From positions 1,370,001-1,434,000 of the forward strand of contig NZ_CP017478.1 in assembly GCF_001761325.1 (NCBI RefSeq): 64,000 nt of DNA. Direction: 5' to 3'. The translations under genes and the position numbers were made by a program. This document shows, piece by piece, positions 7,632-51,942 of this stretch; positions within the stretch are counted from its first letter, which is position 1; each line of letters starts with the position of its first letter. The DNA is from Urechidicola croceus (GTDB lineage Bacteria > Bacteroidota > Bacteroidia > Flavobacteriales > Flavobacteriaceae). The notes below the pieces were generated by a model. The model was not told the origin of the DNA and did no database searches. It saw only the letters and a program-made list of their open reading frames with translations.

Positions 7632-9308
7632 ATGAAGAAAACGTTTTTATTGATATTATCAATAGTACTAATAGTAAATTGTAAATCACAAAATACAAAT
7701 CAATCATTAATTAACAACACTGAAATTACTTCAGTAACAAAACCAAAACTTGTCGTTGGAATTGTTGTCGACCAAATGAGGTATGACTATCTTACAAGAT
7801 TTTATGACAAATATTCTGAAGGTGGATTTAAACGTTTAATGAATAATGGCTATAACTTAAAGAATACACATTACAACTACATCCCTACATTTACTGCTCC
7901 TGGGCACGCATCTATTTATACAGGTACTACTCCAGAAAATCATGGCATAATAGGAAATAATTGGTACGATAAATTTGCAAAAAAAAGTATCTATTGCGTT
8001 GATGACGAAAATTATATCACGATTGGATCTAATTCTAATGAAGGAAAAAAATCACCGAAAAGATTATTAACAACCACAGTTACAGATCAACTTCATATTG
8101 CTCAAAATATGAGTGGAAAAACAATTGGTATTGGAATTAAAGATCGTTCATCTGTTTTACCTGCAGGCCATACTGCCAATGGTGCATATTGGTTTGATGG
8201 TAAAAACGTTGGAAAATGGGTTAGTAGTTCTTATTACATGACAAGTTTACCTAAGTGGGTTAATGAATTTAATAATACAAATAAGGCCGATACATATTTA
8301 AATCAGCCTTGGATAACTTTATATAATATCTCAACATATACTGAAAGTATTGAAGATAAAAACAATTATGAAGGACCTTTAAAAGGTGAAAAATATGCAA
8401 CATTCCCACACGACTTACCAAGTTTAAGAGAAAAAAATGGAAATTATGATTTGATAAAATCCACTCCTTTCGGGAACACATTGACAACAGATTTTGCTAT
8501 TTCTGCAATCAAAGGAGAAAAATTAGGAAAAAGTCAATTTACAGATTTTCTTACAATAAGTTATTCAAGTACAGACTATGTTGGACATCGATATGGTGTT
8601 GAATCAAAAGAAATAGAAGATACCTATATTCGATTAGATAAAGATTTAGAAAGGTTGTTATTAACACTAGATAAAGAAATTGGTAATGAAAATTACACCT
8701 TATTTTTAACTGCCGATCATGCAGCAACTCAAGTACCAAAATACTTGACAGATTTAAAAATTCCATCAGGGTATCTAAATAATCAAAGTTTAAATGAATA
8801 CTTAAATAATGTTACATTAGATTATTTTGGTTCAAATGGTTTAATTGAAAATATTTCAAACTCAAATATATTTTTGAATACTGAAAAAATTAGATCTTTA
8901 AATTTAGATAAAAACAAAATTTCAGAAACAATTGTTGATGAACTAATTAACTTCAAAGATATTCATAAAACTGTAAGTGCTAAAACCCTTCAAACTTCTA
9001 ATTTTAAAGATGGATTACTAAGTTTATTACAAAAAGGTTATAACCAAAAATTTTCTGGTGATGTTCTCTTTACGAAATCTCCATCAGTAATTAGTGATTA
9101 TTATGAAGAGAAAGGCGGGACTACTCACGGTTCTGGATATAGCTATGACACGCATGTACCATTATTATTTTACGGAAATGGAATTAAAAAAGGGAACTCT
9201 AACAATTACTATCCAATTGTTGACATTGCACCAACTATTTCGGCTTTATTAAATATTGAATTCCCAAATGGTTCAACTGGAACTGTAATAGTAGAAGTAT
9301 TAAAATAA
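7632..9308 (+). CDS. PafA-type alkaline phosphatase
   Basis: A 558-residue phosphomonoesterase of the alkaline phosphatase superfamily, close to the calcium-activated PafA of Elizabethkingia. The N-terminus is a lipoprotein signal ending VNC, so the enzyme is exported. The known PafA active-site set can be traced: metal Asp in VVDQMRYDYL, nucleophile Thr88 in PTFTAPGHAS, Asn in IIGNNWYD, Lys and Arg in GIKDRSSVLPAGH, Asp and His in STDYVGHRYG, Asp-His in TADHAA, and the last His in TTHGSGYSYD. The phosphate-binding Asn/Lys/Arg set supports a monoesterase over a diesterase. It likely scavenges phosphate from organic esters in the envelope. The M90 peptidase gene follows after 12 bp. Confidence 0.93.
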   Translation: MKKTFLLILSIVLIVNCKSQNTNQSLINNTEITSVTKPKLVVGIVVDQMRYDYLTRFYDKYSEGGFKRLMNNGYNLKNTHYNYIPTFTAPGHASIYTGTTPENHGIIGNNWYDKFAKKSIYCVDDENYITIGSNSNEGKKSPKRLLTTTVTDQLHIAQNMSGKTIGIGIKDRSSVLPAGHTANGAYWFDGKNVGKWVSSSYYMTSLPKWVNEFNNTNKADTYLNQPWITLYNISTYTESIEDKNNYEGPLKGEKYATFPHDLPSLREKNGNYDLIKSTPFGNTLTTDFAISAIKGEKLGKSQFTDFLTISYSSTDYVGHRYGVESKEIEDTYIRLDKDLERLLLTLDKEIGNENYTLFLTADHAATQVPKYLTDLKIPSGYLNNQSLNEYLNNVTLDYFGSNGLIENISNSNIFLNTEKIRSLNLDKNKISETIVDELINFKDIHKTVSAKTLQTSNFKDGLLSLLQKGYNQKFSGDVLFTKSPSVISDYYEEKGGTTHGSGYSYDTHVPLLFYGNGIKKGNSNNYYPIVDIAPTISALLNIEFPNGSTGTVIVEVLK

Positions 9309-9320
9309 TCATTAAAATTC

Positions 9321-10196
9321 ATGATTATAATTGCTTTACTAATTATAGTATTTATTACTATTTACTTCTTCAATTTCTATAATAAAAAGGAGGCGTGGAC
9401 CGAACCAACGACACTTTTTCCAATGAAATGGAGAATTCTATTAGAGAAAAACGTGAATTTTTACAATTCGCTTTCTATTGATGAAAAAAAGTATTTTGAA
9501 TTTGAAATTCAAGAATTTTTAGCCAATCATAAAATCACTGGAATTGATGTTAATGTCGATATTACTGATAAATTATTAGTCGCTTCAAGTGCAGTAATTC
9601 CTATTTTTAAATTTCCTGATTGGAAATATACCAATCTAGATGAAGTATTGATATATAGTGATAGTTTCAACGAAAATTTTGAGACTAAAGGGGAGAATAG
9701 AAAAATTCTTGGAATGGTAGGAACAGGATTTATGAATGGTACAATGATACTTTCAAAACCTGCGCTACACCATGGTTTCTCAAATCAATCGGACAAGAAG
9801 AATACGGCTATTCATGAATTTATTCATTTGATTGACAAAATGGATGGTGTAATTGATGGAATTCCTAAGGTATTACTAGAAAATCAATATTCAATTCCTT
9901 GGTTTGACCTTATAGATAAAAAAATTGATGAAATTTATAAAAAACGATCTGACATCAACCCTTATGGAGGTACAAGTCGTGTAGAGTTTTTTGCTGTAAT
10001 TGGTGAGTATTTTTTTGAAAGACCAAAACTATTATCCAGAAAACATCCAGAATTGTATGAGATTCTTGAACAGATTTTTAATCAGTCAATGAAAAATAAA
10101 AATCTAGTTAAAAAAACTATATCTATTGGTAGAAATAGTCCTTGTCCATGCAGTAGTGGACTAAAGTATAAAAAATGTTGCGCAGTTATTAACTAA
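9321..10196 (+). CDS. M90-family (MtfA-like) zinc peptidase with C-terminal SEC-C motif
   Basis: A 291-residue protein with an N-terminal hydrophobic segment (residues 1-20), so it is probably anchored in the membrane. The middle is an MtfA/M90 peptidase: zinc motif HEFIHLIDKMDG plus downstream Glu in RVEFFAVIGEYFFERP. In Escherichia coli MtfA acts on peptides and interacts with the Mlc repressor; that partner role cannot be assumed here. The last 20 or so residues form a separate SEC-C zinc motif, GRNSPCPCSSGLKYKKCC, as found at the SecA C-terminus, where it binds zinc. It is co-oriented with the phosphatase and overlaps the convergent methyltransferase gene by 8 bp. Confidence 0.85.
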   Translation: MIIIALLIIVFITIYFFNFYNKKEAWTEPTTLFPMKWRILLEKNVNFYNSLSIDEKKYFEFEIQEFLANHKITGIDVNVDITDKLLVASSAVIPIFKFPDWKYTNLDEVLIYSDSFNENFETKGENRKILGMVGTGFMNGTMILSKPALHHGFSNQSDKKNTAIHEFIHLIDKMDGVIDGIPKVLLENQYSIPWFDLIDKKIDEIYKKRSDINPYGGTSRVEFFAVIGEYFFERPKLLSRKHPELYEILEQIFNQSMKNKNLVKKTISIGRNSPCPCSSGLKYKKCCAVIN

Positions 10197-10998
10197 TTTT
10201 TTTCACTATCCAAACATCTTGGTTAGGCTGCCAATTATCAACATCAGAAATCGTTTCAACATGTTCTAAGACTGTATCATTTTTAAAAAGCATATTCATA
10301 AACACCTTCGGATGGAAAGCAGAATACGTTCTATGCCCTTCTTTTACCATACCACGAACCACTAATTTTCCTGTTTCATAACTACCCAATTCTTTATTAG
10401 TTAATTTAGGTTTATAATTATCGCCTTGTGTTGTTAAAAACAATATTCCATTTGGTTTTAGTATTCTCCAAAGTTCTCTATACCAATCATAGTGCAGTTT
10501 TTCTGATAGATGAGTAAAAATTGAAATTCCATAAATCACATCAAAATAATCGTCAGGGTAAGGTAATTTTGCACTTAATGAATTCTTATTAAACTTAACT
10601 TCTGGAATATTCTGTGAACACCAATTTATTGTTTTTTCGTTATAATCTGTAGCAAAAAACTCACAATTATTTCCAACTAAGTTTGGTAAATGACGAATTA
10701 TTCTTCCTGGTCCGCATCCCCAATCTAATATTTTCTTACCTTCTAATTGTGTGTGCTTTTTTAAATATTTTTTTAACCATATAGCAGTCTCTTTTCCTCC
10801 ATTATAATATTTGTCATAATTCATTTGAAATGATTCATAAATCAAATAATCTGGAGGTAATATTATTGTTGGATTATTTGCTTCAAACTCTTTATTTATC
10901 TTAGAATTCTTACTCTTTTGATAAAAATACTGAAGTTTATCTACTAGATACAATAATTTTAATTGCCTTAGAGAATTTGAAACCTGCCCTACATTCAT
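10189..10998 (-). CDS. Class I SAM-dependent methyltransferase
   Basis: A 269-residue Rossmann-fold methyltransferase of the type 11/25 group. Motif I is KKILDWGCGPGR, the acidic motif II region is EFFATDYNEKTI, post-I and motif IV are PDDYFDVIYGISIFTHL, and LWRILKPNGILFLTTQG follows. About 80 residues precede motif I, and they contain PPDYLIYESFQMNY, found in methyltransferases that modify lipids, glycans or small molecules. The substrate is unknown. It is the last gene of the minus-strand run porU-porV-cdd-methyltransferase, 30 bp after cdd. Confidence 0.85.
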   Translation of the reverse strand: MNVGQVSNSLRQLKLLYLVDKLQYFYQKSKNSKINKEFEANNPTIILPPDYLIYESFQMNYDKYYNGGKETAIWLKKYLKKHTQLEGKKILDWGCGPGRIIRHLPNLVGNNCEFFATDYNEKTINWCSQNIPEVKFNKNSLSAKLPYPDDYFDVIYGISIFTHLSEKLHYDWYRELWRILKPNGILFLTTQGDNYKPKLTNKELGSYETGKLVVRGMVKEGHRTYSAFHPKVFMNMLFKNDTVLEHVETISDVDNWQPNQDVWIVKKIS

Positions 10999-11028
10999 GA
11001 AGTAAATTAATTATGAAGACCTAATTAG

Positions 11029-11511
11029 TTACAAAAAAGATTTATCAAATGCCAACGGAAGTAAATCTAGAAGGGAATCTGTCTTAATGATTTTTCCAGT
11101 TTCACCCATAAAATAAATTTCGATATTATATTTTTGATTTATTTCATATTCAGAAAGTGTTTGTCTACAAGCGCCACAAGGTGCAATAGGTTCACTAACT
11201 AAATTATTCAATGATTTTGCAGTGATTGCAATTTTTAAAATTGGTATTCCAGGATAATCAGATGAAGCCTTCCAAACAGCCACTCTTTCGGCACACATAC
11301 CGGAAGGATATGCTGCGTTTTCTTGATTATTACCAGTAATTACTTCACCATTTTCTAATAAAAATGCTGTGCCAACAAGAAATTTTGAATACGGTGCATA
11401 TGCAGTTTCTCTAATTTTAATAGCTTCATTCATCAACGATTGTACTTCTTCCGGAAGTTCACTTATAGAATTAAATAGTGTGATTGAAGTTGATAAATTA
11501 ATTTTTTTCAT
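11029..11511 (-). CDS. cdd: Cytidine deaminase
   Basis: A 160-residue tetrameric-type cytidine deaminase that converts cytidine and deoxycytidine to the uridine forms in pyrimidine salvage. The zinc and catalytic motifs are intact: CAERVAVWKA (zinc Cys and proton-shuttle Glu) and PCGACRQTLSEYE (the other two zinc Cys). The substrate loop AAYPSGM precedes the first motif. It starts 23 bp after porV. The porV-porU-cdd neighbourhood is, to my knowledge, common in flavobacteria. Confidence 0.95.
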   Translation of the reverse strand: MKKINLSTSITLFNSISELPEEVQSLMNEAIKIRETAYAPYSKFLVGTAFLLENGEVITGNNQENAAYPSGMCAERVAVWKASSDYPGIPILKIAITAKSLNNLVSEPIAPCGACRQTLSEYEINQKYNIEIYFMGETGKIIKTDSLLDLLPLAFDKSFL

Positions 11512-11534
11512 TAAAAATTGAGTCTTAATTATAA

Positions 11535-12680
11535 TTAATAATATTCGTATAATTCTCCTAAATCAAATCCTAGTGAAAATCTCAAGGTATTCTCTAATGG
11601 GTTATTTATATCTGAAGAATTAAATAAATAAGATATATCTAATCTACTACTTTTAAACTTGAATCCTGCTCCTAATGTAAAATATTTACGAGCACCTTTT
11701 AGGTCATTTTCATTGAAATAACCTGTTCTTAAAGCAAACGAATTGTCATACATATATTCAACTCCTAAAGCCCATGTAAACTCTTTCATTTCTTCACTAA
11801 AACCACCTGGAGCATCTCCAAATGATTGAAACATTCCTGCGAAGAACTCAACATCATCATCTTTTCCTTCAATGATTTCTCCTGTTTCAGGATCTCTTAA
11901 AGGTGGTGTTGGAACCAATAATTTGGTAAATTCTAAAGTTGTACTTATTGTATTATAATCATCTAAAATAAAATCAAATCCTCCTCCTAATTTTAAGTTA
12001 GTAGGTATAAAATTTTCACGTCCACCATCAGTATAAGAAACTTTTGGTCCAATGTTAGAAATATTAAATCCACCTCTCCATTTTCCATTAAAATCTCCAT
12101 AATTATTTTCTTCTGATTGGTAGTATCCTGAAATATCAACTGCAAATGTATTTACAGTGTTTAATTGCGAATTATCTACTTTTAATGCAAAATCAGAACG
12201 AATATATCGCATAGTAACACCCAAAGAAAATGTTTCATTAAGTTTTAATGCATATGTTCCATCTACAGATAATTCATTTGGCTTTTCTTTACCAATTTCA
12301 TTTCCAGAATTGTCGGTCAGTTGAATTTCTCCTAATGTAAAATATTTGAAACTCGCAGCCCATGCGCTTCGATCATTTATTCTATTTCCAAATGAAACCC
12401 CACCTAAAAATACATCATTTACCAACTCTCTCATCCATGGTGTATAATTAACAGCCAAAGCGTATTGCGAATTTAAAAAAGCATACTTAGCTGGATTGTG
12501 ATGTTGAGAATTAGCATCAGAAGATGTTGCAACACCAACATCACCCATACCTCCTGCTCTTGCATCTGGTGTAATCAATAAAAATGGTGCCGCTGTCGTT
12601 ATAGGGTTTGGCTCATCTTGAGCCCTAAGTGCAGGTATCGTAAATAAAATTACAAATAATACTATTATTAATTTTTTCAT
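11535..12680 (-). CDS. porV: Type IX secretion outer-membrane protein PorV
   Basis: A 381-residue beta-barrel of the PorV/LptO family. Residues 1-20 are a signal peptide. The mature N-terminus holds the family motif FLLITPDARAGGMGDVGVA followed by HHNPAKYAF, and the barrel ends LGFDLGELYEYY. In the type IX system PorV collects cargo carrying the C-terminal domain from the translocon and brings it to the PorU sortase. It follows porU by 37 bp on the same strand, which fits co-production with its partner. Confidence 0.95.
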   Translation of the reverse strand: MKKLIIVLFVILFTIPALRAQDEPNPITTAAPFLLITPDARAGGMGDVGVATSSDANSQHHNPAKYAFLNSQYALAVNYTPWMRELVNDVFLGGVSFGNRINDRSAWAASFKYFTLGEIQLTDNSGNEIGKEKPNELSVDGTYALKLNETFSLGVTMRYIRSDFALKVDNSQLNTVNTFAVDISGYYQSEENNYGDFNGKWRGGFNISNIGPKVSYTDGGRENFIPTNLKLGGGFDFILDDYNTISTTLEFTKLLVPTPPLRDPETGEIIEGKDDDVEFFAGMFQSFGDAPGGFSEEMKEFTWALGVEYMYDNSFALRTGYFNENDLKGARKYFTLGAGFKFKSSRLDISYLFNSSDINNPLENTLRFSLGFDLGELYEYY

Positions 12681-12717
12681 TTATTTATTAAGTTAAAGTG
12701 GTACAAATATCTTTATT

Positions 12718-15700
12718 TTATTGGAGTATTACTAATTTCTCGTATTTTTCTGCTTTCACATTGGACAACAAACTTTTAACATTTAGTTTATATACATATA
12801 CTCCTTTTCCTATTTTATCTCCAAAATCATCTAAACCATTCCAAGTGATTGAACGTGATAAATTTCCATCTGATTGTACAGTTTGATTAATGGTTTTGAC
12901 TAATTTTCCTGATACTGTGAAAATTTGAACTTGCACATCTAATGCTTCATTTGGTTTATTATGATTAAACCAAAATTCAGTGTAATTCACAAATGGATTT
13001 GGATAATTTAATACGTTATCAAGTACCATTTCTGAATCATTAACTACAACAAATGTTAACGTTGCACAAGATGAATTATTGTAAGTATCCCAAGCACATA
13101 ACTCAAGAGTATGAATTCCAGACTCTAAGTTTCTAAATAAATAATTCACTTTTCCTTTAGTAAAATCATTTAATTCTGTTTGGTAATAATCATTTAGCAC
13201 TACAGGATTTGCTTGATCACCATCTAATATAGCTACAATATCATGATCTACAGCCGTTATAGAAGTATTAATTCCGCTTTCATCTTCCAAAACAGCAACT
13301 AAATAAGGTGACGAATTTGTATTTCCTCCATCAATAAATGTTTCGTCATTCATATACAATTTTATTTCAGGTCCTTCATCATCAACTGCTGCATCTTCAT
13401 TTATACCTCCAATAACTACATCAAAATTATATCCTGCTTTGTCTATAACATCATCATCAGCATAAAAACTTATTTTACCATTTCCATAAGCAATTCTCAA
13501 ATCTTTTGGGGCAATAAAATCAAAGGTGAAATCACCATTTTCAACTGTAGCTCTACCTCTAAAAATCTTACTTTCTAAAGCGTCAAACTCCATAACTATA
13601 CCATGATTATCATTGTCAAGTGTAGTTTTATTTATAGATTTATCATATACAGTCGCCGACAATTCACCATTATAATCGTTAAGTTTATTGCCAACAGCAT
13701 CAGTAATAATTCCTCTAAACGAAACATGTGAAAGTGCTTTTATAGTATCTAAAGACTCTGTGATTTCAATATCATTCATATGAGTTAAACGAATATCTTC
13801 TTTTGGCACTGCCAATTTCATTGCCGGATCACCTAATGAATAAATAAACAATCTTTGATTTGTTGTAAATTGATTTTTTATAGTCATCAATGCTTCTGAA
13901 ATAGTTAAATCACTATTATCAAAATTCAATAATAATTCAGTGAGACGATCATTAAAAACTCTACCTACATTTATATATATTTCTCTTGTTGTCGTAATCA
14001 AAGTACTTGACCCTCCATTTTTACTCCATATTACATATTCACCTCCAGCCTGTCGTAGAGGATTATCAAATTGAGAAAACTGGCATGTAATTGTAATAAT
14101 TAATGGTTGTTTATTTACATTATTCCATGCTTGAAGTTCTGGTATTTCTAAAATTCGTTCAGCTGCCCATCCATCTTGACCACCATGACCAAAATAATTA
14201 ATCATTAAAGTTCCTGTTTCAACCCCATTTGAAATTGCGGTATTTACATCAGGATATCTTTCACCACCCGCAGAAGTTTCTTGAGAAAAGGCATCAGCAT
14301 ATATTTTTTTAACATTTAAAATCGGTTTTCTTAACTTTATAGAATCTGCAATTTGTTCCATTGTACTTTGAAGTACGGATTCACTTGCGATATCTAAATC
14401 ATCAGAAATAAGTGTTACCAAATTTCTCCAATCACCATAAGAGTTTGTACTATTATAATTAATAATTTTATCAACTACATTAGACGCTTGTACTATATCT
14501 GAAACTGGAATTCTTCCTGTTGCAACATCTTGTCTATTATTTGGAGTCAATAGTCCTTCATTTTCATCGAGCATTGCAAAATAATCATCGGTAAGATATG
14601 AAGTTGCTAAATTAAAACTTTCAAAAGCTAAAAACGCTGGCACAATATTGTTATTTCCAAAAATTCTATCTTTATAATCGAAGGATGCATCACCAAATAG
14701 ACACAAATATTTAATTCTATTTTCTGGTGTAGATGCACTATTATATAAATATTTAGTAAAATCTCGAATTGCAGTTAAATCAGGACTTCCAGAAGAAAAT
14801 TCATTATATATTTCAAATAAATCAACAACTTCAACTGTCAAGCCTTTTGCCCTATGAAAATCTGCCAATCTTTCAGCTTCTCCAGCCAAAAAATCTTGAG
14901 TCACTATAACATAATCTATATCTTCTAAAGCATGTAAATTTTGGTTATCAACTTTACTTTGAGATAAAGTTTCAGGTGTAAAATAATCGTCTTGATTTAA
15001 TGCAATATATTCTTGAAAAGTGTTTGAACTCTCATTAAAAGAAAATGTTGTATTGGTTGATTGGTTAACTACTCTAAAAGGATTCATAGGGTCTGTAACA
15101 TTCCAAACTTCTGCAATATTATTTCCGTTTTGGATTTCATATCTATAAATTCCATTATTATTGATGTCAAAATTTCTAAAACCAAATTGATTTCCATTTG
15201 CAACTAATTTCTTTTTACCTATAACTTCAATGTAATCTAAATAAGCTTTAGCAGATGGATTTCCATTATTATCAAATGTAACTTCAACATTAACTTCATT
15301 TCCAGAAATATTTACACTGCCTTCATTTTCTCTTGCAAACGCTAAAATTAAACTACCTAAAGAAACTGCAGGATAACTAATTGTGGTTAATTCTTGACCA
15401 TTAACTTTTATATGCATTTGCGACGATGAAGATGATTCAACAACCCCACGAACTCTCACTGTAATATCCTCAGAGTTATCTATATTATTAAAAGGAATTG
15501 TAAAGTTCTGGACATTTTCAACTGTTAAATTTTCACCAAACCATTGCTGACCAACAGAGAATAAATTAAATTCTTCCTTTTCATAAAAATTGTGGTCGTC
15601 AAATGTTGTTATAACTTGATTGGTTGAAGTAGTTATAGGAATTTCGTTTTCAATTCTTTTACCTTCAGCGCCATCAACAGTTATAAAATAGTAAGATTTA

Positions 15701-43100: not shown

Positions 43101-43136
43101 AAGGTCTCAAAATTAATTTTTTGGGGCTTTTTTTAT
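43101..43136 (+). terminator. Terminator of the plus arm of the glucan locus
   Basis: A 12-bp stem with three G-T wobbles (43101-43112 with 43119-43130) and a T-run that reaches the stop codon of the convergent hydrolase gene. Confidence 0.75.
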
Positions 43137-43927
43137 TTATAGTCATTTAAAAAAGATTGAAACACCTTCCAATATTGGTCGTTTCCATCAGTAGATTCCC
43201 AAAGTGCACGAGAACCATGAATACCCTTAAAACTTGGCTTAAAATGCGTTAAATTATCAGTATTTACTTCTTTTAATAAATCAACAACTTTTATAACTTC
43301 ATTTTTTGAAGATGTTACAAAAAGAGGTTTATCATAATTTTTTATAGTTTTTGTTACATTCACTCCTTTTAAATATTCTCCAGGACTAAATGCAGCAACC
43401 ATTTTAACTTTTGGATTATTCTTACCTATAATTAATACCAAAGATGCCGAATAAGAACTTCCAACAAGAACTATTGGCTGATTCCCATTTTCACTATATA
43501 GATAATCTATTGCAGCTTCTATATCTTGCTTAGCATCTAAATAATCGGTGGGTAAACCTTTATCTTTTGCTCTTATCGCTGTTTCATTCTTTATATCGTT
43601 AATTTCATTTCCAGAACGCTGATCGATTGCTAAACAAGAATATCCTAAATAGTTTAATTTAATAGCAGTGTCTTTATATTCTCCTCTACTATATCCCGCT
43701 TGGTGGCACAATAATATTGTTGGTTTCAATCCATTAACCTCATACAAATCGGCAGAAATAGGTAGTTTGTCTTTTGAAAATAATAAGGTTTTTACAACAA
43801 AAATATTTGGATTATTAACCGATTTTTCATTCAATTCTTTCATCATATTTGATGATTTACTCTTATCATGGTTACATGAATATAGAGAACTAAAGATTAC
43901 AAAAACAATAATAAAACACTTTTTCAT
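43133..43927 (-). CDS. Alpha/beta-hydrolase lipoprotein
   Basis: About 264 residues from the ATG at 43927, which gives a standard lipoprotein signal with lipobox LYSC; an ATG 17 codons upstream would place a charged stretch before it. The fold is a dienelactone-hydrolase-like alpha/beta hydrolase: oxyanion region ILLCHQAGYSRGEY, nucleophile Ser in VLVGSSYSASL, and the likely His in GIHGSRALWE. The Asp lies in KPLFVTSSKNEV or nearby, where it is less clear. The substrate is unknown. It is convergent with the amylase gene and not obviously part of the glucan operon. Confidence 0.8.
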   Translation of the reverse strand: MKKCFIIVFVIFSSLYSCNHDKSKSSNMMKELNEKSVNNPNIFVVKTLLFSKDKLPISADLYEVNGLKPTILLCHQAGYSRGEYKDTAIKLNYLGYSCLAIDQRSGNEINDIKNETAIRAKDKGLPTDYLDAKQDIEAAIDYLYSENGNQPIVLVGSSYSASLVLIIGKNNPKVKMVAAFSPGEYLKGVNVTKTIKNYDKPLFVTSSKNEVIKVVDLLKEVNTDNLTHFKPSFKGIHGSRALWESTDGNDQYWKVFQSFLNDYK

Positions 43928-44022
43928 TATAAAATTTTCTTTTGTTAAATCGTAAATATACTTTATTGCAGAATACATAAACTTTAAAATTCTTATTTTA
44001 GATAAATATTTAGCCTAAATCT

Positions 44023-45195
44023 ATGAAAAAAAACACCAAATTACTATTAAAAGATTCGTTATTATGTACTATTTTTTCATTCATCACCATCTTTTTATTG
44101 TCGCTTTTGTTTCTCAATATTTCCTTTTTTAATCCATTAAAAAAAGCAGTAAAAGATTTTAGTTTTCTTGATGTATACTATTCAGAAAGTCTTGGCGAGA
44201 CAACTAAAATCAGCCCAAAAATCATTATAATAAATATAGAGCAAAAAGATAGGTTTCAGATAGCACAATTACTACAAAATCTCATAAAATCAAATCCAAA
44301 AGTTATTGGATTGGATATTATATTCAAGGAAAAAAAAGAGGTGTTTTCAGATTCAATACTTGCCTCAGCACTAAACAGCGACAAAGTTGTTCAATCATAT
44401 TTAATAGAGAACAAAAAAATAATTAATAATGATCCCATTTTTCATAACAATAAATCCAAAGGGTATATAAATCTTAATTTTGATTCTAAAACCAATGTAA
44501 TACGAGAGTTTATTGGAATCAAGAAAATTGACAATAAAATCTACAATTCATTTTCTACTGAAATCACCAAAAAATTTCTTGAAGATAAATGGGAGGAATT
44601 TAAATATGATAAACGGTTAACAAAAAATAAATCAATAAAATATCAAGGACAATTGAATTCATTTTTAACATTTGGCTTTGATGAATTTGAACTATTAGAT
44701 AATAAATCTATAGTCAAAGATAAAATTGTTCTATTAGGTTATTTAGGTACTCCTACTGGAAATATATATGACATAGAGGATAAACATTTTACTCCATTAA
44801 ATAAGGAAGTCGCTGGTAAAAGTATTCCAGATATGAATGGTATTATTGTTCATGCCAATATTATAAATATGCTAATTAATAATGATTTTATGTTTCAAGT
44901 CTCAGATTTTTGGATTGGAATATTTTCATTTTTATTCTCATTTATATGTATCATGTATTTTATATGGCTAGACAAAAAAAATATGGTGAGTTTTATGTCT
45001 ATAAAAAAATTAGTGTTATTTATTTTTACTGTTGTGCTAATGTGGTTTTCTTTATGGCTTTTTAAAAAAGGAATCGTTTTAAAAACGACTATTATTATAG
45101 CTACAACATTATTAAGTTGTGCATTCATTCCTTATTATAAATATTTAATCAAAAAAATTCAAACAAAAATAAAATGGAAAAGTTTTTTTCAATAA
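44023..45195 (+). CDS. CHASE2-domain membrane protein without an output domain
   Basis: A 390-residue protein. An N-terminal membrane segment (about residues 12-34) is followed by an extracytoplasmic CHASE2 sensor domain (about 35-285) with ISPKIIIINIEQKDR, VIGLDIIFKEKKE, TFGFDEFELLDNKSIVKDKI and IHANIINMLINND-like VHANIINMLINND. Three C-terminal membrane segments lie near residues 296-316, 330-347 and 355-372, and the protein ends 18 basic-rich residues later. CHASE2 usually feeds a cyclase, kinase or phosphatase in the same chain; none is present here. The next gene overlaps it by 22 bp, so the two are almost certainly made together. Confidence 0.85.
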   Translation: MKKNTKLLLKDSLLCTIFSFITIFLLSLLFLNISFFNPLKKAVKDFSFLDVYYSESLGETTKISPKIIIINIEQKDRFQIAQLLQNLIKSNPKVIGLDIIFKEKKEVFSDSILASALNSDKVVQSYLIENKKIINNDPIFHNNKSKGYINLNFDSKTNVIREFIGIKKIDNKIYNSFSTEITKKFLEDKWEEFKYDKRLTKNKSIKYQGQLNSFLTFGFDEFELLDNKSIVKDKIVLLGYLGTPTGNIYDIEDKHFTPLNKEVAGKSIPDMNGIIVHANIINMLINNDFMFQVSDFWIGIFSFLFSFICIMYFIWLDKKNMVSFMSIKKLVLFIFTVVLMWFSLWLFKKGIVLKTTIIIATTLLSCAFIPYYKYLIKKIQTKIKWKSFFQ

Positions 45196-45974
45196 AATTA
45201 ATTTTTACGGTTGTTGTAATATTATCTTCAATGTACTCATACAGTCAAAAAAGTTTTTTTGTTTATAATGTAGAAGGAAGTCCTATTTTTAAGGTTAACG
45301 ATTCTATTAAGCCTATAAATAAAGGTACTAAAATTGATACTAAATCATCATTAACTATTTCAAAAACAGACACGATTTTGATAATAAATGGATTAGGAGA
45401 ATTATTCAAAATTTCTAAAGAAGGTAATTATTTGTTTAAAGATCTAGAAAAATTAAAATCTGAAAAAAATAATTCATCTTTTACAAAAAAGTATTTCAAC
45501 TATATATGGAATCAGTTTACTAATAATACTAAAAATAATACGCAAACTGGGGTTGTGTATAGAACTGATAATCTTACCTTAATGCTTAAACCTTTAGACA
45601 GTATCAAAATACATTTTCCTGAAATAAAATTTGTGTGGAATATGAACCCTTTAGAAAATAAAGAACTTTATTTTATACTTCTTGAAAATGAGACAAATCA
45701 TGTCACTAAAATTGGGACCACTAATAATACGATTACATTATTTATTGACAACCATATTTTACACAGAGGCAAAACATATAAATGGACTGTTTCCGAGACA
45801 AAATATCCTGATTTAGAGTCTATAGAATTTTATAATTTTGAACTATTAGATAATGATACATTTAAATCAATGCAATTAGAAATTGGCGAAATCACAAGTG
45901 ATTTAGAAAAATTAGGATTTCAAACTGAAATGATAAAAAGAATGATATGCGAAGATTACAAGGTATGTTTTTAA
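45174..45974 (+). CDS. Exported protein with FecR-like N-terminal domain, CHASE2 partner
   Basis: A 266-residue protein starting inside the 3' end of the CHASE2 gene. Residues 1-24 are a signal peptide ending SYSQ. Residues about 26-90 resemble a FecR-type beta domain: FFVYNVEGSPIFKVND, INKGTKIDTKSSLTISK and GELFKISKEGNYLF follow its G, KG, S and GxF spacing. Residues about 140-240 look like a beta-sandwich (KIHFPEIKFVWNMNPLENKE onward). FecR-like and CHASE2 domains are often found together in other bacteria, so the assignment gains from context. The molecular role is unknown. Its stop codon abuts the stop codon of the convergent M48 gene with no base between. Confidence 0.65.
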   Translation: MEKFFSIKLIFTVVVILSSMYSYSQKSFFVYNVEGSPIFKVNDSIKPINKGTKIDTKSSLTISKTDTILIINGLGELFKISKEGNYLFKDLEKLKSEKNNSSFTKKYFNYIWNQFTNNTKNNTQTGVVYRTDNLTLMLKPLDSIKIHFPEIKFVWNMNPLENKELYFILLENETNHVTKIGTTNNTITLFIDNHILHRGKTYKWTVSETKYPDLESIEFYNFELLDNDTFKSMQLEIGEITSDLEKLGFQTEMIKRMICEDYKVCF

Positions 45975-47393
45975 TTATTTTTTACTTTTATTAATGACCT
46001 TATTAACATTATTCAAAGTATTTCTAATTTCAACATTATTTGGTGCTTCTACCAAAATATACTCTAAATATGGCTTTACTCTTTTATACAATTCAATTCT
46101 CTCTAAAGCTAATTTATCATATTCCTTATTTTCTTCGGGAGAAATGCCTAATCCATTCATTCTTTCAATTAAATAATCTTCTCCACTTAAAATAGTAACC
46201 ACTAAATTGGTATAAGCATCTGTATTATCATTAGGTTTTAATTCAATAGATTTCTTAAAATATTGTTCGGCACGTTCATAATTATCAACTTCTAAATGTA
46301 ATACACCTAAGTTATAATGTAATTTAGGATCATATGGTTTCAACTTTAATGCTTGTTCCAGTTTCTCCCTAAATTTCACATTATTACCTAACTTAAAATA
46401 TAAATTCGCCTCATAAATAATTAAATCATAATCATCAGTATTGTATTCATTAGCTTTACTAAATGCTTTTAAAGCCTTATAATTATCTTCCATATTCAAA
46501 TGGTTTAAAGCTATGAATTTATATACATCCTTTAAATTTTCATTATAACCGTTATCCAATAATACTTCATAGCGCTTTAACGATTCTATATAGTTTCCAG
46601 CAAAGAATGAAATATAGGCCGAAAAATACAATGACCCTAATTCTTTTTTACCTCCATACTGATAAGATTTCAAAAAGTATTCAGCCGATGCGCTGTAATT
46701 TTTTCTTTCATATTCTTCATTTCCTTTTTTGAAATAATCTGATGATAACTTTTCATCTACATCATATAAATCTATTTTTTTTATAATTTTCACTTTTGGT
46801 TCTTCAATAATTTTCTTTTTATTCCCACTTGCTTTTAACCAACCTTTTTCGATTTCCCTAAGCCTATCTACTTTCGCAGGATGGGTATGTGTCGCTTTTT
46901 CATAACGCAATGTTTGAATTGCACTTTGTGCCTCCTCTAATGTTGCTCCCATTTTTGCCAAATAAAACCCTGAAGAAAAATCGGCTTCTAATTCAAATCT
47001 GTGATTACTGCCTTTGTTATTTAGTGCGTGTCCATTGAGATGATGTGCAATTTCATGAGCCAAAATACTTATCGCTGCCCAATCATTTGACGCTTTATTA
47101 TTTATATTTTCGAAAAACTCATTATCATATAGTATATACCTTATTTTCTCACCACTAGAACTCTCTATATTCTTTGCGATAGCATTGTTTATATTTGGAC
47201 ATTCTTGTAATACAAAATTTCTAAAAACTCCTATCTCATCTAAAATCCTATCTACTGTAATTTCTGCCTCTTCATTGGTTGCAAATCCAAGTTGAGCACA
47301 CTCATAATTAACCTCTTCAACTGTTTGAAAGTTTTGAGTATATGAAATATAACTTATTAAAAATATGAATATCTGAATTAACTTTATTTTCAT
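45975..47393 (-). CDS. Exported M48-type zinc metalloprotease with C-terminal TPR repeats
   Basis: A 472-residue protein. Residues 1-20 are a signal peptide. Residues about 21-185 are a compact M48-like head with zinc motif HEIAH at 113-117 and third ligand Glu in FELEADFSSGFYLAKMG. A linker follows, then residues about 215-460 form TPR repeats (EYERKNYSASAEYFLKSYQY, LHYNLGVLHLEVDNYERAEQ and PNDNTDAYTNLVV). The head is about 80% identical by hand count to that of the gene at 48943 and clearly related to the one at 47405. M48 proteins such as BepA also combine a zincin head with TPRs in outer-membrane quality control, which is a plausible analogy only. Confidence 0.88.
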   Translation of the reverse strand: MKIKLIQIFIFLISYISYTQNFQTVEEVNYECAQLGFATNEEAEITVDRILDEIGVFRNFVLQECPNINNAIAKNIESSSGEKIRYILYDNEFFENINNKASNDWAAISILAHEIAHHLNGHALNNKGSNHRFELEADFSSGFYLAKMGATLEEAQSAIQTLRYEKATHTHPAKVDRLREIEKGWLKASGNKKKIIEEPKVKIIKKIDLYDVDEKLSSDYFKKGNEEYERKNYSASAEYFLKSYQYGGKKELGSLYFSAYISFFAGNYIESLKRYEVLLDNGYNENLKDVYKFIALNHLNMEDNYKALKAFSKANEYNTDDYDLIIYEANLYFKLGNNVKFREKLEQALKLKPYDPKLHYNLGVLHLEVDNYERAEQYFKKSIELKPNDNTDAYTNLVVTILSGEDYLIERMNGLGISPEENKEYDKLALERIELYKRVKPYLEYILVEAPNNVEIRNTLNNVNKVINKSKK

Positions 47394-47404
47394 TTGTTTC
47401 TGTT

Positions 47405-48859
47405 TTAATCGACAACTTTAAAATCTTCTTTATCTACGGTTAGATTCGCAATTATTTCTTCATATTTCAAAATAGAAGTAGAATTATATGAATCCGAATG
47501 CATTTCCATTTCTATGTAAAATGGAAGAAGAACACCATTTACAGGTCTATAATCTGAGTAAATATTAAATATATTACTACTAGTTTTAGAATCTTTTAAA
47601 TATTCTGTATTGTTAATAAAATCTATTTCTGAAATAGTAGCCGTTTTATTAAATTTCAATAGTCCTGATTTAACATTATAATAATGTATCGACGAACTTG
47701 TTATAAGTATTTTAGCATCTTTTGTATTATTGGCTATATTTTTTACAGGCATTTGAACAGCAAAGCATCGTTCTCCATTTATGACTTTCACTCCTAGAAG
47801 TTTAACCTCCGGATTACTAACTAAAAGAGAATATTCTGGTATAAAATTCCCTTGCTTTTCAACAGATTTATTAAAACTTTGAAATTTCCACTTTTTATTA
47901 GGTTTCTCTTTTATGTAAGATTTACCATCTAGCATGAGGGTGTAGGTATTTGTGCCATTTAGTTCTATTTCTGAAATATATTTATTTGGAGTAAGAAAGG
48001 TCAACTCCATTTTCATATCAGATTCAATTTCATTTTCATCAACTGTGGTTTTAGAAGTAAAATTTAATTTTTGTTTCATAGTCTTTAACCCTACAACCTT
48101 TTCTTGTCCTCCTATTGCCTCAATATAATTGGCAAATACTTGTTGAGGAGTTACACCGCCAATCTCAGTAATATCATCATCTACTATTAATTCTTCTACT
48201 ACCTCTTCTTCATTATTTTCGTCTTCCACCACTATATCTTCAGTAATTTCATTAATTACCTCTTCTTCAATTTTTTTAACTTCAATTGTTTTCCCATTCC
48301 CTCTGTTCCAACCTTTCTCAATTGCATTTAATCTATCCAATTTAGCAGGGTGTGTATGAGTTGCTTTCTCATACCTCAATGTATTGATAGCACTTTGTGA
48401 ATCGGATAAACTTGCTCCCATTCTAGCCAAAACAAAACCTGAAAATTCATCGGCTTCTAATTCAAATTTATGATTGCTTCCCTCATCATTCAAAGAATGT
48501 CCGTTTAAATGGTGTCCTATTTCATGTGCCAAAACGCTAGTTGCTGCCCAATCATTTCCGGCTTTGGTATCAATCTTTTCAAAAAAATTTGAGTCGTATA
48601 AAATATAGCGTTCTTTATATCCGGATCCTACATCAATGTTTTTTGCAACGGCATTGTTAATATTTGGACATTCTTGAATAATAAAATTTCGAAACAGTCC
48701 TATTTTATCCAATATATTATCAACCGTAATCTCTGCATCTTCATTTCCTGCAAAACCAAGTTGGGCACAAGCATCATTGACTTCTTCTACTGTTTGATAA
48801 TTTTGAGACGAAATACTGACTGTAATTAATAAGTTGATAAATAATACTATCTTTTTCAT
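47405..48859 (-). CDS. Exported M48-type zinc metalloprotease with LolA-like C-terminal domain
   Basis: A 484-residue protein with signal peptide (1-19) and an M48 head: HEIGH at 112-116 and third ligand in FELEADEFSGFVLARMG. An acidic linker rich in Glu, Asp and Val (about residues 200-235) leads to a C-terminal beta domain of about 240 residues. It begins TPQQVFANYIEAIGGQEKV and contains MELTFLTPNKYISEIELNG, NGERCFAVQMPVKN and RPVNGVLLPFYIEMEM, the layout of LolA/outer-membrane-lipoprotein-sorting-like domains. Such domains bind lipids or lipidated proteins. It lies 11 bp upstream of the TPR-tailed paralogue and 83 bp after the third. Confidence 0.85.
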   Translation of the reverse strand: MKKIVLFINLLITVSISSQNYQTVEEVNDACAQLGFAGNEDAEITVDNILDKIGLFRNFIIQECPNINNAVAKNIDVGSGYKERYILYDSNFFEKIDTKAGNDWAATSVLAHEIGHHLNGHSLNDEGSNHKFELEADEFSGFVLARMGASLSDSQSAINTLRYEKATHTHPAKLDRLNAIEKGWNRGNGKTIEVKKIEEEVINEITEDIVVEDENNEEEVVEELIVDDDITEIGGVTPQQVFANYIEAIGGQEKVVGLKTMKQKLNFTSKTTVDENEIESDMKMELTFLTPNKYISEIELNGTNTYTLMLDGKSYIKEKPNKKWKFQSFNKSVEKQGNFIPEYSLLVSNPEVKLLGVKVINGERCFAVQMPVKNIANNTKDAKILITSSSIHYYNVKSGLLKFNKTATISEIDFINNTEYLKDSKTSSNIFNIYSDYRPVNGVLLPFYIEMEMHSDSYNSTSILKYEEIIANLTVDKEDFKVVD

Positions 48860-48942
48860 AATTTAATATTAAATATATTTTGTTGAATCAAAACCTTCTT
48901 TTTTTATAAATAAATTTACTTAGGGTATAATTAAATTTCACA

Positions 48943-49986
48943 TCAATCTGTAACTATAAATGAAATCGGTAAAGCGTATGGAACATTCACTGCCTTACCT
49001 CGTTGATATCCTGGTTCCATTTTTGGTAATAAATTCAATACTCGTTTAGTTTCTTCTTGTAGTCCTGGATGTGGTGCTCTAATACCTATATCTATTACTT
49101 CACCATTTTTGCTAATCTTAAATTGTGCTAAAATTTTAATTGGTTGAAATTTAACACATTTGGAAATATAACTACCTCCTTTTGCATCATATACTTCTTT
49201 TGTTTCTAGGCATGTAGATTGCAATCCTAAATCATTTGCTATATCAGCATTAAAATTTCTACCTATATGTGTTCTAAAAGATTTATTCAAACACTTCTTC
49301 TTTTCTTGATTAGTACCTTTACAACCAGGAAAAGTAGGCACCTCTTCTATTACAGAAAATGGAACTTCTTCTTCAATTTCGCCACTTTCCTTCTTTTCTT
49401 TATTTATTTTCACTTCTTTACTTCCAAATTCCCAACCTTTCTTTATAGAGTTTAACCTATCTAATTTTGCTGGGTGCGTATGAGTCGCTTTTTCATATCG
49501 CAATGTATTTATGGCACTTTGAGCCTCTTGAAGTGTCGCTCCCATTTTTGCCAAATAAAAGCCAGATGAATAGTCTGCTTCTAATTCAAATTTATGATTA
49601 CTCCCTTTATTATTTAATGCATGGCCATTGAGGTGATGGGCAATTTCATGAGCCAAAATACTGATAGAAGCCCAATTATTTGATGCTTTATTATCAATAT
49701 TATTAAAGAACTCATTATCGTATAGAATATAACGAAGTGTTTCTCCTGTTTTACTTTTTACATTTTTTGCAACCGCATTATTAATGTCAGGGCATTCTTG
49801 AACAATGAAATTTCTAAATAAACCTATTTTACTCAGAATTCGGTCTACGGTTATTTCTGCTTCTTGATTGCTTGAAAATCCTAATTGTACACATGCGCTA
49901 TTTACTTCTTCAACACTTTGAAAATTTTGTGAAATAGTTACTTGAGTTAATAAAATTGTAACAAATATGACTATACTTTTTTTCAT
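48943..49986 (-). CDS. Exported M48-type zinc metalloprotease with TonB C-terminal domain
   Basis: A 347-residue protein: signal peptide (1-20), M48 head with HEIAH at 113-117 and FELEADYSSGFYLAKMG, a short charged linker, then a TonB-type C-terminal domain from about residue 210. That domain opens with PFSVIEEVPTFPGC and ends RVLNLLPKMEPGYQRG and VPYALPISFIV, the familiar flavobacterial TonB_C pattern. Unlike a true TonB it has no inner-membrane anchor and no proline-rich spacer, so it cannot transmit energy in the usual way; a binding role is more likely. The start lies 1 base after the end of the next gene upstream. Confidence 0.87.
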   Translation of the reverse strand: MKKSIVIFVTILLTQVTISQNFQSVEEVNSACVQLGFSSNQEAEITVDRILSKIGLFRNFIVQECPDINNAVAKNVKSKTGETLRYILYDNEFFNNIDNKASNNWASISILAHEIAHHLNGHALNNKGSNHKFELEADYSSGFYLAKMGATLQEAQSAINTLRYEKATHTHPAKLDRLNSIKKGWEFGSKEVKINKEKKESGEIEEEVPFSVIEEVPTFPGCKGTNQEKKKCLNKSFRTHIGRNFNADIANDLGLQSTCLETKEVYDAKGGSYISKCVKFQPIKILAQFKISKNGEVIDIGIRAPHPGLQEETKRVLNLLPKMEPGYQRGKAVNVPYALPISFIVTD

Positions 49987-49987
49987 G

Positions 49988-50461
49988 TTATATCTTTTGA
50001 AAATATTTATTTAATTCAGGTCCTATTTTTAACACTTTTTGTCCTTGTAGGTCAATAAACCCGATTTGTTGTGTATCTTCTGAATATAAAATCATAAATT
50101 GACTTTCAGTATCTTTTATAATTATTTGTTTTGTAGGATTAAAATTTAATTTTTCATAAGAGTCCCAATAATAATTATCATCATTTATAATTAAACTTAA
50201 TAACTCTACTTTTTCACTTTCATTCAAAGTTCGTACAAATATATTTTTATTTGAATATTCATCTTTTGTTCCTTGAATCAACTGTTTTTTAATTGCATAT
50301 AATTGAATAGATGAAATATTGTCAATAATTACAATTTGATTTTCAGTTAAGAGTTCAATAGTTTTTGGATTCATTTCAAATAATTCTGTTACGGATTGTG
50401 TCTTTACTTGTGCGCATCCAATCAAAGTAAAAGCAAACGCTATAAACTTAAAAATTCTCAT
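49988..50461 (-). CDS. Small lipoprotein of unknown function
   Basis: A 157-residue protein with a lipoprotein signal (lipobox LIGC, then AQVK). The rest is a predicted mixed alpha/beta domain with many Ile and Gln residues; marks include NQIVIIDNISSIQLYAIKKQ, SEKVELLSLIINDDNYYWDS and DTQQIGFIDLQGQKVLKIGP. I recognise no family. It sits between the papain-like protease gene (1-bp gap upstream) and the first M48 gene (1-bp gap downstream), so it is certainly part of this operon. It may be an inhibitor or substrate-recognition partner of one of the proteases, which is only inference. Confidence 0.75.
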   Translation of the reverse strand: MRIFKFIAFAFTLIGCAQVKTQSVTELFEMNPKTIELLTENQIVIIDNISSIQLYAIKKQLIQGTKDEYSNKNIFVRTLNESEKVELLSLIINDDNYYWDSYEKLNFNPTKQIIIKDTESQFMILYSEDTQQIGFIDLQGQKVLKIGPELNKYFQKI

Positions 50462-50462
50462 T

Positions 50463-51902
50463 TTATTTTCTTTTTATATCGAGTACCATCAATGCCATAG
50501 TTCCCTTTGTATATTTGGCTTCAAACGCCATTTTACTTTCATCAAGGTTTACTTTGTTTTTATCTATTAGCTTATCCTTAAAAATAACATATAGTTTATC
50601 TATTAAACCTCCTTCTAAATCATCTAATTCTGTTTTGACCTCATTAATATCAATTTTATCTTCAGAAAAAATCACAACAGTATAATCAGAAGCAACGTCA
50701 GAATTCAAACGAAACCAATACTTTTCACCGGGTACAATCACCTCAGTATCTTCATAACTTATGTAAGGGCTAATTCCTTCTTTATGTGGAAATAAAACAC
50801 CATTTCTTTGATCACTATCAGCTCCTACTACATATATATATGCCGGTTTATTTACTTTTGCATATATTTTATAACGTGTATTTTCTGGGTGAATTTCGGT
50901 AGTTATATAATCCCCAATACTTTGAGATGATTCATCTACAACTACATCCTGCCATCCTAAAATCGATTTTTTATATTCTCCTGTTCCTTTCTTTATTTGC
51001 ATTATAGAACCATCATATAATTTCATAGTCAATTCACCTGCCAATATATTCTCAGGAATTTTAATACTTTTTGCAGGAATCATTTCAAAAGCATACTTTG
51101 TATACTCAATGAACTCTTCATATCTCACCCATATAAAACCATCATTTCCCCAGTTTTTTCCCCAACTGTTTACTATTTCAAAAGCTCCTCCATACTTATC
51201 ATCATCATAACCGACCACACACATTGCATGCCCTCCAGTAATCCCTCCATAATCAGGTTCGTAAACATTTTTAGCGGTATAAAATGAATTTTCTACTTGA
51301 AAACCAATAATTACAGGGTTTCCGTTTATTAATGATCTTTTTACAGACTCTATTTTGACTTCTTCACTTTCGTCTCCGTCAAACAGTCTGTTAAAATCTT
51401 TAATCTTATTATCCTCAGCCATTAGCCATAACTCTGAAGGAATGTAACTATCACACATTACATTATAATCTTTAAAATAAGGAACTCCCTTATCCACCAT
51501 TGCTTCTAAGGCTTTATTTATATATGCTCCTCCTTGACAATTATAGTCATCATCAACATTAGAATTTAAATAGGTAAAAACAGGTGAAAAGGCATTCATA
51601 GAAATATCATCCTGAGAAGTTAAATTATTTATTCTTGCATTTAATATGGTTCTACCATAATAGGCACTTGACCAACCAACACAAGTTCCATAACTACCTT
51701 GGGTTAAAATTTCTGGAACAAACTCTTTTAACGAAGCACTTGATTGTTCAGCCACTACACTTTGAAAAGAAACGTTTCGTGCTTTTAAAGGTGTAGCTGA
51801 ATATGCATCATCATCAAATAAAAGTCCAGTTCTGGGAGTAGTTTGAGAATATAATAATGAAGAAAAAGTTAATAAGTAGATGAGTAAAATTGTTTTTTTC
51901 AT
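50463..51902 (-). CDS. Exported papain-like (C1) cysteine protease with DUF4384-like C-terminal domain
   Basis: About 479 residues from the ATG at 51902, which gives the signal MKKTILLIYLLTFSSLLYSQ; an ATG six codons earlier is less likely. The C1 catalytic set is complete: Gln and Cys in TQGSYGTCVGWSSAYYG, His in GGHAMCVVGYDDD and Asn in NSWGKNWGNDGFIWV. After about residue 280 comes a beta domain. Its segment KPAYIYVVGADSD, VLFPHKEGISPYI and PGEKYWFRLN resembles DUF4384, a domain seen beside peptidase, caspase-like and kinase domains in other bacteria. It is the first gene of the minus-strand protease operon ending at 45975. Confidence 0.88.
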   Translation of the reverse strand: MKKTILLIYLLTFSSLLYSQTTPRTGLLFDDDAYSATPLKARNVSFQSVVAEQSSASLKEFVPEILTQGSYGTCVGWSSAYYGRTILNARINNLTSQDDISMNAFSPVFTYLNSNVDDDYNCQGGAYINKALEAMVDKGVPYFKDYNVMCDSYIPSELWLMAEDNKIKDFNRLFDGDESEEVKIESVKRSLINGNPVIIGFQVENSFYTAKNVYEPDYGGITGGHAMCVVGYDDDKYGGAFEIVNSWGKNWGNDGFIWVRYEEFIEYTKYAFEMIPAKSIKIPENILAGELTMKLYDGSIMQIKKGTGEYKKSILGWQDVVVDESSQSIGDYITTEIHPENTRYKIYAKVNKPAYIYVVGADSDQRNGVLFPHKEGISPYISYEDTEVIVPGEKYWFRLNSDVASDYTVVIFSEDKIDINEVKTELDDLEGGLIDKLYVIFKDKLIDKNKVNLDESKMAFEAKYTKGTMALMVLDIKRK

Positions 51903-51942
51903 AATATTTATTTTAGGCATTTAATTCTTAGATAAATCTAAC

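Follow-up and report, generated by a model that had tools for sequence, protein, structure and literature searches.

In the parts of the literature cited here, CHASE2 domains have already been described together with caspases (PMC8195603) and with FecR (PMC5192318). The caspase proteins have a variable C-terminus, with CHASE2 among the options (PMC8195603), and the Burkholderia BiofilmReg operon encodes a response regulator, a LysM-FecR protein, a CHASE2 histidine kinase and a DUF4136 protein (PMC5192318). A Nostoc cluster contains two WD40 genes, a hypothetical gene, and CHASE2 and DUF928 genes (PMC5587647). Among metalloproteases, BepA binds zinc through HExxH and a Glu, and has an HP active-site plug with an Arg at +6 (PMC7950410), and in polymorphic toxin systems recombination creates C-terminal diversity (PMC3482391). 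Here we analyse a locus of Urechidicola croceus, whose 3.43 Mb genome is a single contig and whose nearest relatives are Flavobacteriaceae. In a stretch of 64,000 nucleotides (nt) (contig NZ_CP017478.1, positions 1,370,001 to 1,434,000; hereafter the window), seven genes encode a CHASE2 membrane protein, its exported partner, for which the working label FecR-like is retained, an exported papain-family (C1) cysteine protease with a C-terminal DUF4384 domain, a small lipoprotein and three M48 metalloproteases. An initial annotation of the window could not name this combination; a literature search of open-licence papers likewise found no description of it, nor any report of a C1-DUF4384 protein with CHASE2 or with M48.

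Co-inheritance of the seven genes

A search of genome contigs with a profile made from the C1 alignment, confined to genomes in which one of two short peptide motifs is preserved, gave 25 loci. An operon-type C1 protease is found in 17 Flavobacteriales genomes, namely those of the window, L010 (genome G274) and L015-L029 (L numbers denote loci). For L015-L029 the C1 identity is 52-80%, and the genomes carry taxonomic labels of Flavobacteriaceae, Flavobacteriales or a genus within that group. The window, L010, L016 and L029 were first found via CHASE2 and were the source of the C1 profile; the other 13 were found by C1 alone.

The lipoprotein gene lies directly behind the C1 gene in all 17 genomes. 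CHASE2 and FecR-like genes are also present in every genome, beside the C1 operon in 16 and on another contig in L020, and so is an M48 catalytic head (weakest best match, E value 2.9e-52). A suspected loss of CHASE2 at the Altibacter locus (L020, L154) proved wrong, as CHASE2 and FecR-like open another contig. The CHASE2 and FecR-like frames overlap by 22-28 nt in all genomes but L024 (16 of 17; 22 nt in the window). The cleanest test is provided by the 13 genomes found by C1 alone, and all of these (13/13) contain CHASE2, FecR-like and M48. The initial annotation had held that scattered genes, or sets occurring independently of each other, would speak against a system. Since the genes are co-inherited in 17 of 17 genomes, and equally so where CHASE2 was not the query, neither situation applies, and the seven-gene set is a real co-inherited unit.

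The gene order is C1, lipoprotein, a varying number of M48 genes, an optional ion channel, CHASE2, FecR-like and an optional second CHASE2. The ion-channel gene directly precedes CHASE2 in L010 (10832-11536, Pfam Ion_trans), L028 (13776-14480, by BLAST) and L029 (13825-14538, by BLAST), and the second CHASE2 gene is found in L021, L022, L025 and L026. In L024 the FecR-like gene stands ahead of CHASE2, in L027 three extra M48 genes follow the FecR-like gene, and an opposite-strand gene intrudes in L017 (JmjC_2) and L018. Two convergent operons, which had been taken as the basic design, turned out to be a local variant, since the layout is co-directional in 13 of the 17 genomes. The sensor pair is inverted in three genomes, that of the window and those of its closest relatives L015 and L016, and L020 is not assigned to a class as its genes are split over contigs. 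In L015 the CHASE2 and FecR-like genes share a contig with the M48 array and converge on it as in the window. The stop codons abut in the window (45974/45975) and overlap by 4 nt in L016 and, by coordinates, in L015.

These arrangements bear on the possibility that the sensor pair and the protease operon are merely abutting neighbours. The halves in the window are convergent and so not co-transcribed, as such a reading would have it, but all parts occur in 17 of 17 genomes, mostly co-directionally, while the flanking genes differ by genus. With these co-occurrence data the chance reading is already refuted, and we give it practically no credence.

The unit is patchily distributed. In a sample of 299 genomes of the family any C1 match was found in 35, and the operon type in four, with E values below 1e-280 where the next best was 6.2e-90. 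The same four genomes have strong M48 heads (E < 1e-60, the following match being at 3.2e-45); weaker head matches occur in 19 further ones, and those read sit in other contexts. Full-length CHASE2 is found in the four operon genomes and in G048 and G062, and at E 1e-3 in eight genomes, including a contig-end fragment beside a FecR-like gene (G015) and a spurious match (G002). Fisher tests on the 299 genomes gave p values of 3e-9 (M48) and 5e-8 (CHASE2), or 5e-7 and 5e-6 by genus. They are partly circular, because the C1 profile derives from the four positives and the thresholds were set after the gaps were known, and our argument therefore rests mainly on the 13 genomes for which C1 was the only query. 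Correlations from mirror-tree analysis (r 0.53-0.82; 91 pairs, 14 loci) are of limited value, since a shared species history could produce them by itself. A tblastn search of 72,556 plasmid records with C1 gave five matches, two of them covering at least 80% of the query; as all are below 60% identity, C1 is without a near plasmid relative.

M48 genes lie within the operon in 12 of the 17 genomes and are missing there in L021, L023, L024 and L026; L020 is not placed. In L021, L023 and L026 a diverged M48 gene is found about 8-9 kb away, beside the gene of a giant protein and a gene for a product of about 470 amino acids (aa), and in the L024 genome a diverged M48 gene is located on a separate contig. 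The same association of diverged M48, giant-protein and ~470-aa genes is seen in L149-L153; in L149 the domains Por_Secre_tail and DUF5723 were identified. Close to this cluster, L149-L151 and L153 have a gene pair resembling a two-component system, the kinase being Pfam-confirmed in L149 only.

One could therefore imagine that the proteases mature or shed giant proteins exported by the type IX secretion system. In L149-L151 and L153 the clusters are, by coordinates, about 8-9 kb from the operon, and the L149 cluster encodes a DUF5723 protein and a 1745-aa protein that bears Por_Secre_tail. However, the cluster is absent from the sequence inspected around the operons of the window, L010 and L015-L019, in L152 it is on a different contig from the operon, and it contains M48 heads of the diverged kind (E 1e-47 to 1e-59). 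We regard such surface-protein processing as very improbable.

Constant heads and changing tails in the M48 array

The three M48 proteins of the window score 27-30 bits with Pfam against a cut-off of 20.3. All 41 M48 heads examined contain HExxH, ExxxD and an HP plug with an Arg at +6 (HPx4R), and thus belong to the HP-plug type of M48; in this set the truncated L027_20841 is represented by the complete sequence found in L148. An operon contains from 0 to 6 copies, and the tails are of TPR, Sel1, TonB_C or LolA-like type. The last of these, which includes the tail of 47405-48859, is called LolA-like from inspection by eye, and a profile of that tail found no PDB sequence match at E≤1. The window heads are 73-80% identical, the tails only 19-24% over just 27-113 columns.

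Fifteen pairs from L019 and L027 were compared. Nonsynonymous divergence (dN) was 0.009-0.048 for the heads and 0.28-0.81 for the tails in 14 pairs. The sole orthologous pair had a tail dN of 0.049, and the tails are therefore not simply fast-evolving. In these pairs dN/dS of the tails was below 1 (dS, synonymous divergence), with no positive selection seen, and purifying selection on the heads is strong. In pair 19b-19c the head dS was 0.18 versus 0.95 for the tail, a sign of head homogenisation. Other within-genome pairs had head dS of 0.45-1.15, and in L027 head dS is about one third of tail dS. Gene conversion as the sole cause of the alike heads is thus supported for 19b-19c but not for all pairs.

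A second array was found in Lacinutrix and Oceanihabitans (L146, L147), with tails that appear LolA-like, TonB_C-like, TPR-like and Sel1-like by eye and by similarity to the window tails. Between the two genera three of its M48 genes have a dS of 0.033-0.039, compared with 0.72, 0.44 and 0.16 for genes read by eye as thrS, infC and rplT, 0.79 for C1, 0.90 for CHASE2, 0.61 for the first M48 gene of the array and 0.34-0.87 for genes of the other flank (0.16-1.06 for the other compared genes overall). A segment of about 4.8 kb (roughly 8.6-13.4 kb of L146) is 97-100% identical, and beyond it identity is for the most part lower (79-97% in the right flank). This 4.8 kb M48 cassette has been recently exchanged between the two genera. 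The conserved M48 catalytic head with exchangeable tails, in a cassette that moves between genera, is what is new here. Immediately upstream of the four-gene M48 array of Oceanihabitans (L147), the first part of a C1-DUF4384 gene is joined to the last part of a lipoprotein gene in a 128-aa open reading frame (ORF; 6013-6399). This deletion remnant of a second operon indicates that C1 and lipoprotein genes probably once belonged to the second array as well.

The constancy of the heads would also fit a housekeeping role in envelope quality control, in which BepA-like M48 proteases and the papain-like protease clear misassembled outer membrane proteins and lipoproteins, and CHASE2/FecR-like acts as a stress regulator without any part in a cascade or in cell death. 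All 41 heads share the BepA layout (PMC7950410, in the part cited), one window copy has a TPR tail as in BepA, and the heads are under strong purifying selection. On the other hand, an operon-type C1 in four of 299 family genomes and a recent exchange of the cassette between genera are both unlike housekeeping, and the tails differ within one genome. Quality control deserves to be taken seriously but is, in our judgement, unlikely.

An orphan M48 gene with the same head type is found in L125 (G274; 8668-15586), beside the gene of a 1209-aa homologue of PADLOC Upx (E 3.2e-34). The region also encodes a 395-aa protein without a Pfam match and, ahead, a short ORF that is DEAD-box-like by eye, and the M48 tail has a weak PtuA match (3.2e-06). 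It is possibly a defence island.

Caspase and CHAT relatives in Bacteroidota

Elsewhere in Bacteroidota, relatives of the C1 protease are encoded near caspases. Among ten C1 loci (L030-L039) Pfam confirmed a caspase (C14) gene in four: it immediately precedes the C1 relative in L031, L033 and L036, and in L034 it lies four genes ahead. For L032 the only sign of a caspase is a weak BLAST match, and C14 was not demonstrated in the other five. In four of five further loci of the family with a distant C1 (L055-L058, not L060) the next gene is caspase-like by BLAST, and in L055 alone of these it is Pfam-confirmed C14, directly after the C1 relative. An ion-channel-like gene follows this C1 and caspase pair in L055. 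In L059 a caspase (C14)-DUF4384 gene is followed by CHASE2 and FecR-like, in L012 CHASE2/FecR-like adjoins a caspase protein, and in L014 a contig-end FecR-like gene is followed by two genes, one for a beta-propeller caspase and one for a CHAT protein. DUF4384 is thus found on caspase and papain versions alike.

In a sample of the phylum the CHASE2 profile matched in 84 of 395 genomes, in many cases within longer proteins. Nineteen stretches around the better stand-alone matches were annotated over four ORFs on each side with our own hidden Markov models (HMMs), built from few sequences. A FecR-like gene is beside or fused to CHASE2 in 13 of them, or 14 counting L105, where the CHASE2 frame was lost to the ORF filter but the original profile match adjoins the FecR-like gene. 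The fused form is illustrated by L097 (8633-10885), where CHASE2 and the FecR-like domain form one 750-aa protein. C14, CHAT or C1 lies within four ORFs in eight of the 19. By our own HMMs, C1, C14, CHASE2 and FecR-like occur together in L092, L093 and L094 (DUF4384 below cut-off in L092), CHAT is near CHASE2 in L095, and C14 in L096, L098, L099 and L109.

No C14 or CHAT was found in the operon itself in the 16 loci annotated with our own models (window, L015-L029), and ten of 15 operon genomes tested had no C14 match at all. Since relatives of its C1 lie near caspases, and those of its CHASE2/FecR-like pair near caspase, CHAT or C1 genes, the operon appears to be a caspase-free offshoot of a wider theme. 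The genome of the window has a single caspase (L134 1483-2961; match at 2547162-2547857), in which no signal peptide was discerned by eye; the short flanks inspected contain no CHASE2.

The caspase and CHAT genes of the sister loci raise the question of a conflict system, in which the sensor pair detects a phage or rival at the envelope, the proteases kill the cell or degrade envelope-acting proteins of the invader, and the M48 tails are a diversifying recognition part. The recently exchanged array with constant heads and variable tails would fit this, as would the Upx homologue adjoining the orphan M48 of L125 (E 3.2e-34) and the ion-channel gene in the operons of L010, L028 and L029. However, PADLOC 2.0.0 gave only weak matches for window proteins (the hydrolase neighbour to MTase_II at 0.0035 and one M48 to Lit at 0.013), the Upx neighbour is one case, tail dN/dS is below 1, and no mobile element was noticed at the locus, though no search was aimed at them. 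We consider a conflict system rather improbable.

The proteins of the unit

The catalytic set Gln-Cys-His-Asn is intact in all 16 C1 orthologues examined, and a C1 profile search of the PDB retrieves cysteine protease and cathepsin structures, in agreement with papain family C1. The lipoprotein behind it was modelled with AlphaFold from a family of 16 rows (predicted local distance difference test score, pLDDT, 86.3; predicted template modelling score, pTM, 0.75) and has no convincing PDB sequence match (best E 0.16) or Pfam family. It is a candidate inhibitor, anchor or chaperone of C1.

Hydropathy places hydrophobic segments of the CHASE2 protein at residues 13-31, 298-316, 329-347 and 351-369, so that one and three segments flank a periplasmic CHASE2 domain, as in CHASE2 sensors. 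CHASE2 is the sole Pfam match and the protein ends about 20 residues past the last segment; with so short a tail no cytosolic output is visible, and the initial annotation had likewise described a protein lacking an output domain.

The assignment of its partner to a FecR family could not be upheld. None of 18 family members matches FecR (PF04773) at E≤1, and PF04773 has no match at E≤0.01 in the whole genome of the window. DUF928 was not supported either, with no match above cut-off in six genomes and a weak one to one relative only (L094, E 0.065). In the model of the partner (pLDDT 78.9, pTM 0.58) a beta domain at the N-terminus is followed by an fn3-like sandwich and then by helices at the C-terminus. 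Foldseek retrieved fn3 domains as its best matches, most of them from eukaryotic receptors (query TM 0.16-0.25; target TM ≤0.62, reached with single fn3 domains). C259 and C265 near the C-terminus are conserved to at least 90%. PDB profile searches with the CHASE2 and FecR-like proteins gave nothing convincing.

Layout of the locus

ORF calling placed the seven genes where the initial annotation had them, with no base between the stop codons of the two halves (Table 1), and Pfam backed its CHASE2, C1-DUF4384 and three M48 assignments. Its C1 gene is present as described, but the start at 51902 is the second ATG of an ORF that opens at 51920; aligned relatives start at the second ATG. The minus-strand intergenic gaps are 11, 83, 1 and 1 nt.

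Table 1. Genes of the seven-gene unit and the neighbouring hydrolase, in window coordinates.
Feature	Position	Strand	Details
CHASE2 membrane protein	44023-45195	+	390 aa; Pfam CHASE2 3.7e-23
FecR-like exported CHASE2 partner	45174-45974	+	266 aa; no Pfam match
M48 metalloprotease, conserved head and TPR tail	45975-47393	-	Peptidase_M48 3.4e-06, TPR_2 1.9e-10; HExxH, ExxxD, HPx4R
M48 metalloprotease, conserved head and tail without Pfam family	47405-48859	-	Peptidase_M48 5.1e-07
M48 metalloprotease, conserved head and TonB_C tail	48943-49986	-	Peptidase_M48 4.3e-06, TonB_C 2.8e-06
Small lipoprotein directly after C1	49988-50461	-	lipobox by eye; 16 family members aligned
Exported papain-family (C1) cysteine protease with C-terminal DUF4384	50463-51920	-	Peptidase_C1 2.2e-13, DUF4384 2.5e-07
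Alpha/beta hydrolase, divergent neighbour	43133-43978	-	Hydrolase_4 6.6e-07

The export signals of the C1 and M48 proteins and the lipobox were read by eye, and a 19-residue hydrophobicity scan flagged, among the exported proteins, the FecR-like N-terminus alone. A flavobacterial promoter pattern had no match just upstream of C1 or CHASE2 and 18 matches window-wide, and sigma-70-type promoters and terminators occurred at chance level only. The hydrolase adjoins the operon in the same genus only (L009/L016, neighbour 59% identical) and is probably outside the system.

Discussion

With moderate confidence we propose that the unit is a membrane-gated periplasmic protease system. The signal peptides of the C1, M48 and FecR-like proteins and the lipobox of the lipoprotein, all read by eye, argue that the enzymes act outside the cytoplasm. 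CHASE2 and its translationally coupled FecR-like partner would monitor the envelope and, depending on its state, restrain or free the C1 protease, which may fill the place that caspases have in the sister systems. The lipoprotein would tether or restrain C1, and C1 would activate the M48 proteases or act alongside them, with the M48 tails bringing selected envelope proteins to the catalytic head. If the M48 set is a recombining repertoire, its clients should therefore differ between strains.

Three observations weigh against this proposal. A search of the PDB with the M48 head profile retrieves no M48 enzyme at E≤1, so that the M48 proteins are better said to work like BepA than to be BepA. 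The operon proper is without M48 in four of 17 genomes (L021, L023, L024, L026). Finally, 11 of the 19 CHASE2 loci are without C1, C14 or CHAT within four ORFs, and the CHASE2/FecR-like pair therefore serves other purposes too; it is a general envelope module that is often, but not always, tied to a cysteine peptidase.

As to the purpose of the gated protease system, patchiness, array turnover, the caspase relatives and the M48 adjoining Upx in L125 lean towards conflict, and the BepA-like head and purifying selection towards proteostasis. A more speculative version, which we put forward only tentatively and hold to be unlikely in full, is that of a caspase-free periplasmic counterpart of bacterial caspase systems, with a papain-family initiator under the gate of CHASE2 and its partner (with the ion channel in one branch), and the M48 array as a strain-specific executioner or immune repertoire that spreads as a cassette.

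The locus brings three loosely studied subjects under a single modular theme: CHASE2/FecR-type pairs that lack kinases, the DUF4384 tail, and bacterial caspases that carry signal peptides. It also suggests that the place of a caspase can be taken by an enzyme of the papain family. To our knowledge, an M48 array with a conserved head and adaptor-like tails that moves between genera is unusual. Its choice of clients and the selective pressure on it are open to direct test in culturable flavobacteria, among them the Maribacter, Lacinutrix and Zeaxanthinibacter strains that carry the system.

The closest described relatives differ in instructive ways. Caspase-CHASE2 proteins, like the window, pair CHASE2 with a cysteine peptidase, but there the peptidase is a caspase in the same chain, predicted to be cytoplasmic in the Trichodesmium case given in the cited part of the paper (PMC8195603). 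In the window the papain-family enzyme is a protein of its own, which carries DUF4384 and, by eye, a signal peptide, and it is accompanied by the lipoprotein and the M48 array. The Burkholderia BiofilmReg operon resembles the window pair in bringing an exported FecR-domain protein and a CHASE2 sensor together. However, its CHASE2 protein has a histidine-kinase output and a response regulator, its partner matches FecR whereas that of the window does not, and no proteases belong to it as presented in the cited part (PMC5192318). In Nostoc, CHASE2 similarly stands beside another small protein family in the cluster as excerpted (PMC5587647), although DUF928 is unsupported for the FecR-like partner. 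The M48 heads of the window have the ligand and plug layout given for BepA in the cited part, and one copy its kind of TPR tail (PMC7950410), but BepA is one gene, and here up to six heads have different tails. Compared with polymorphic toxins, as far as the cited part describes them (PMC3482391), the arrangement is reversed, with the enzyme as the constant part and a variable part that looks like an adaptor.

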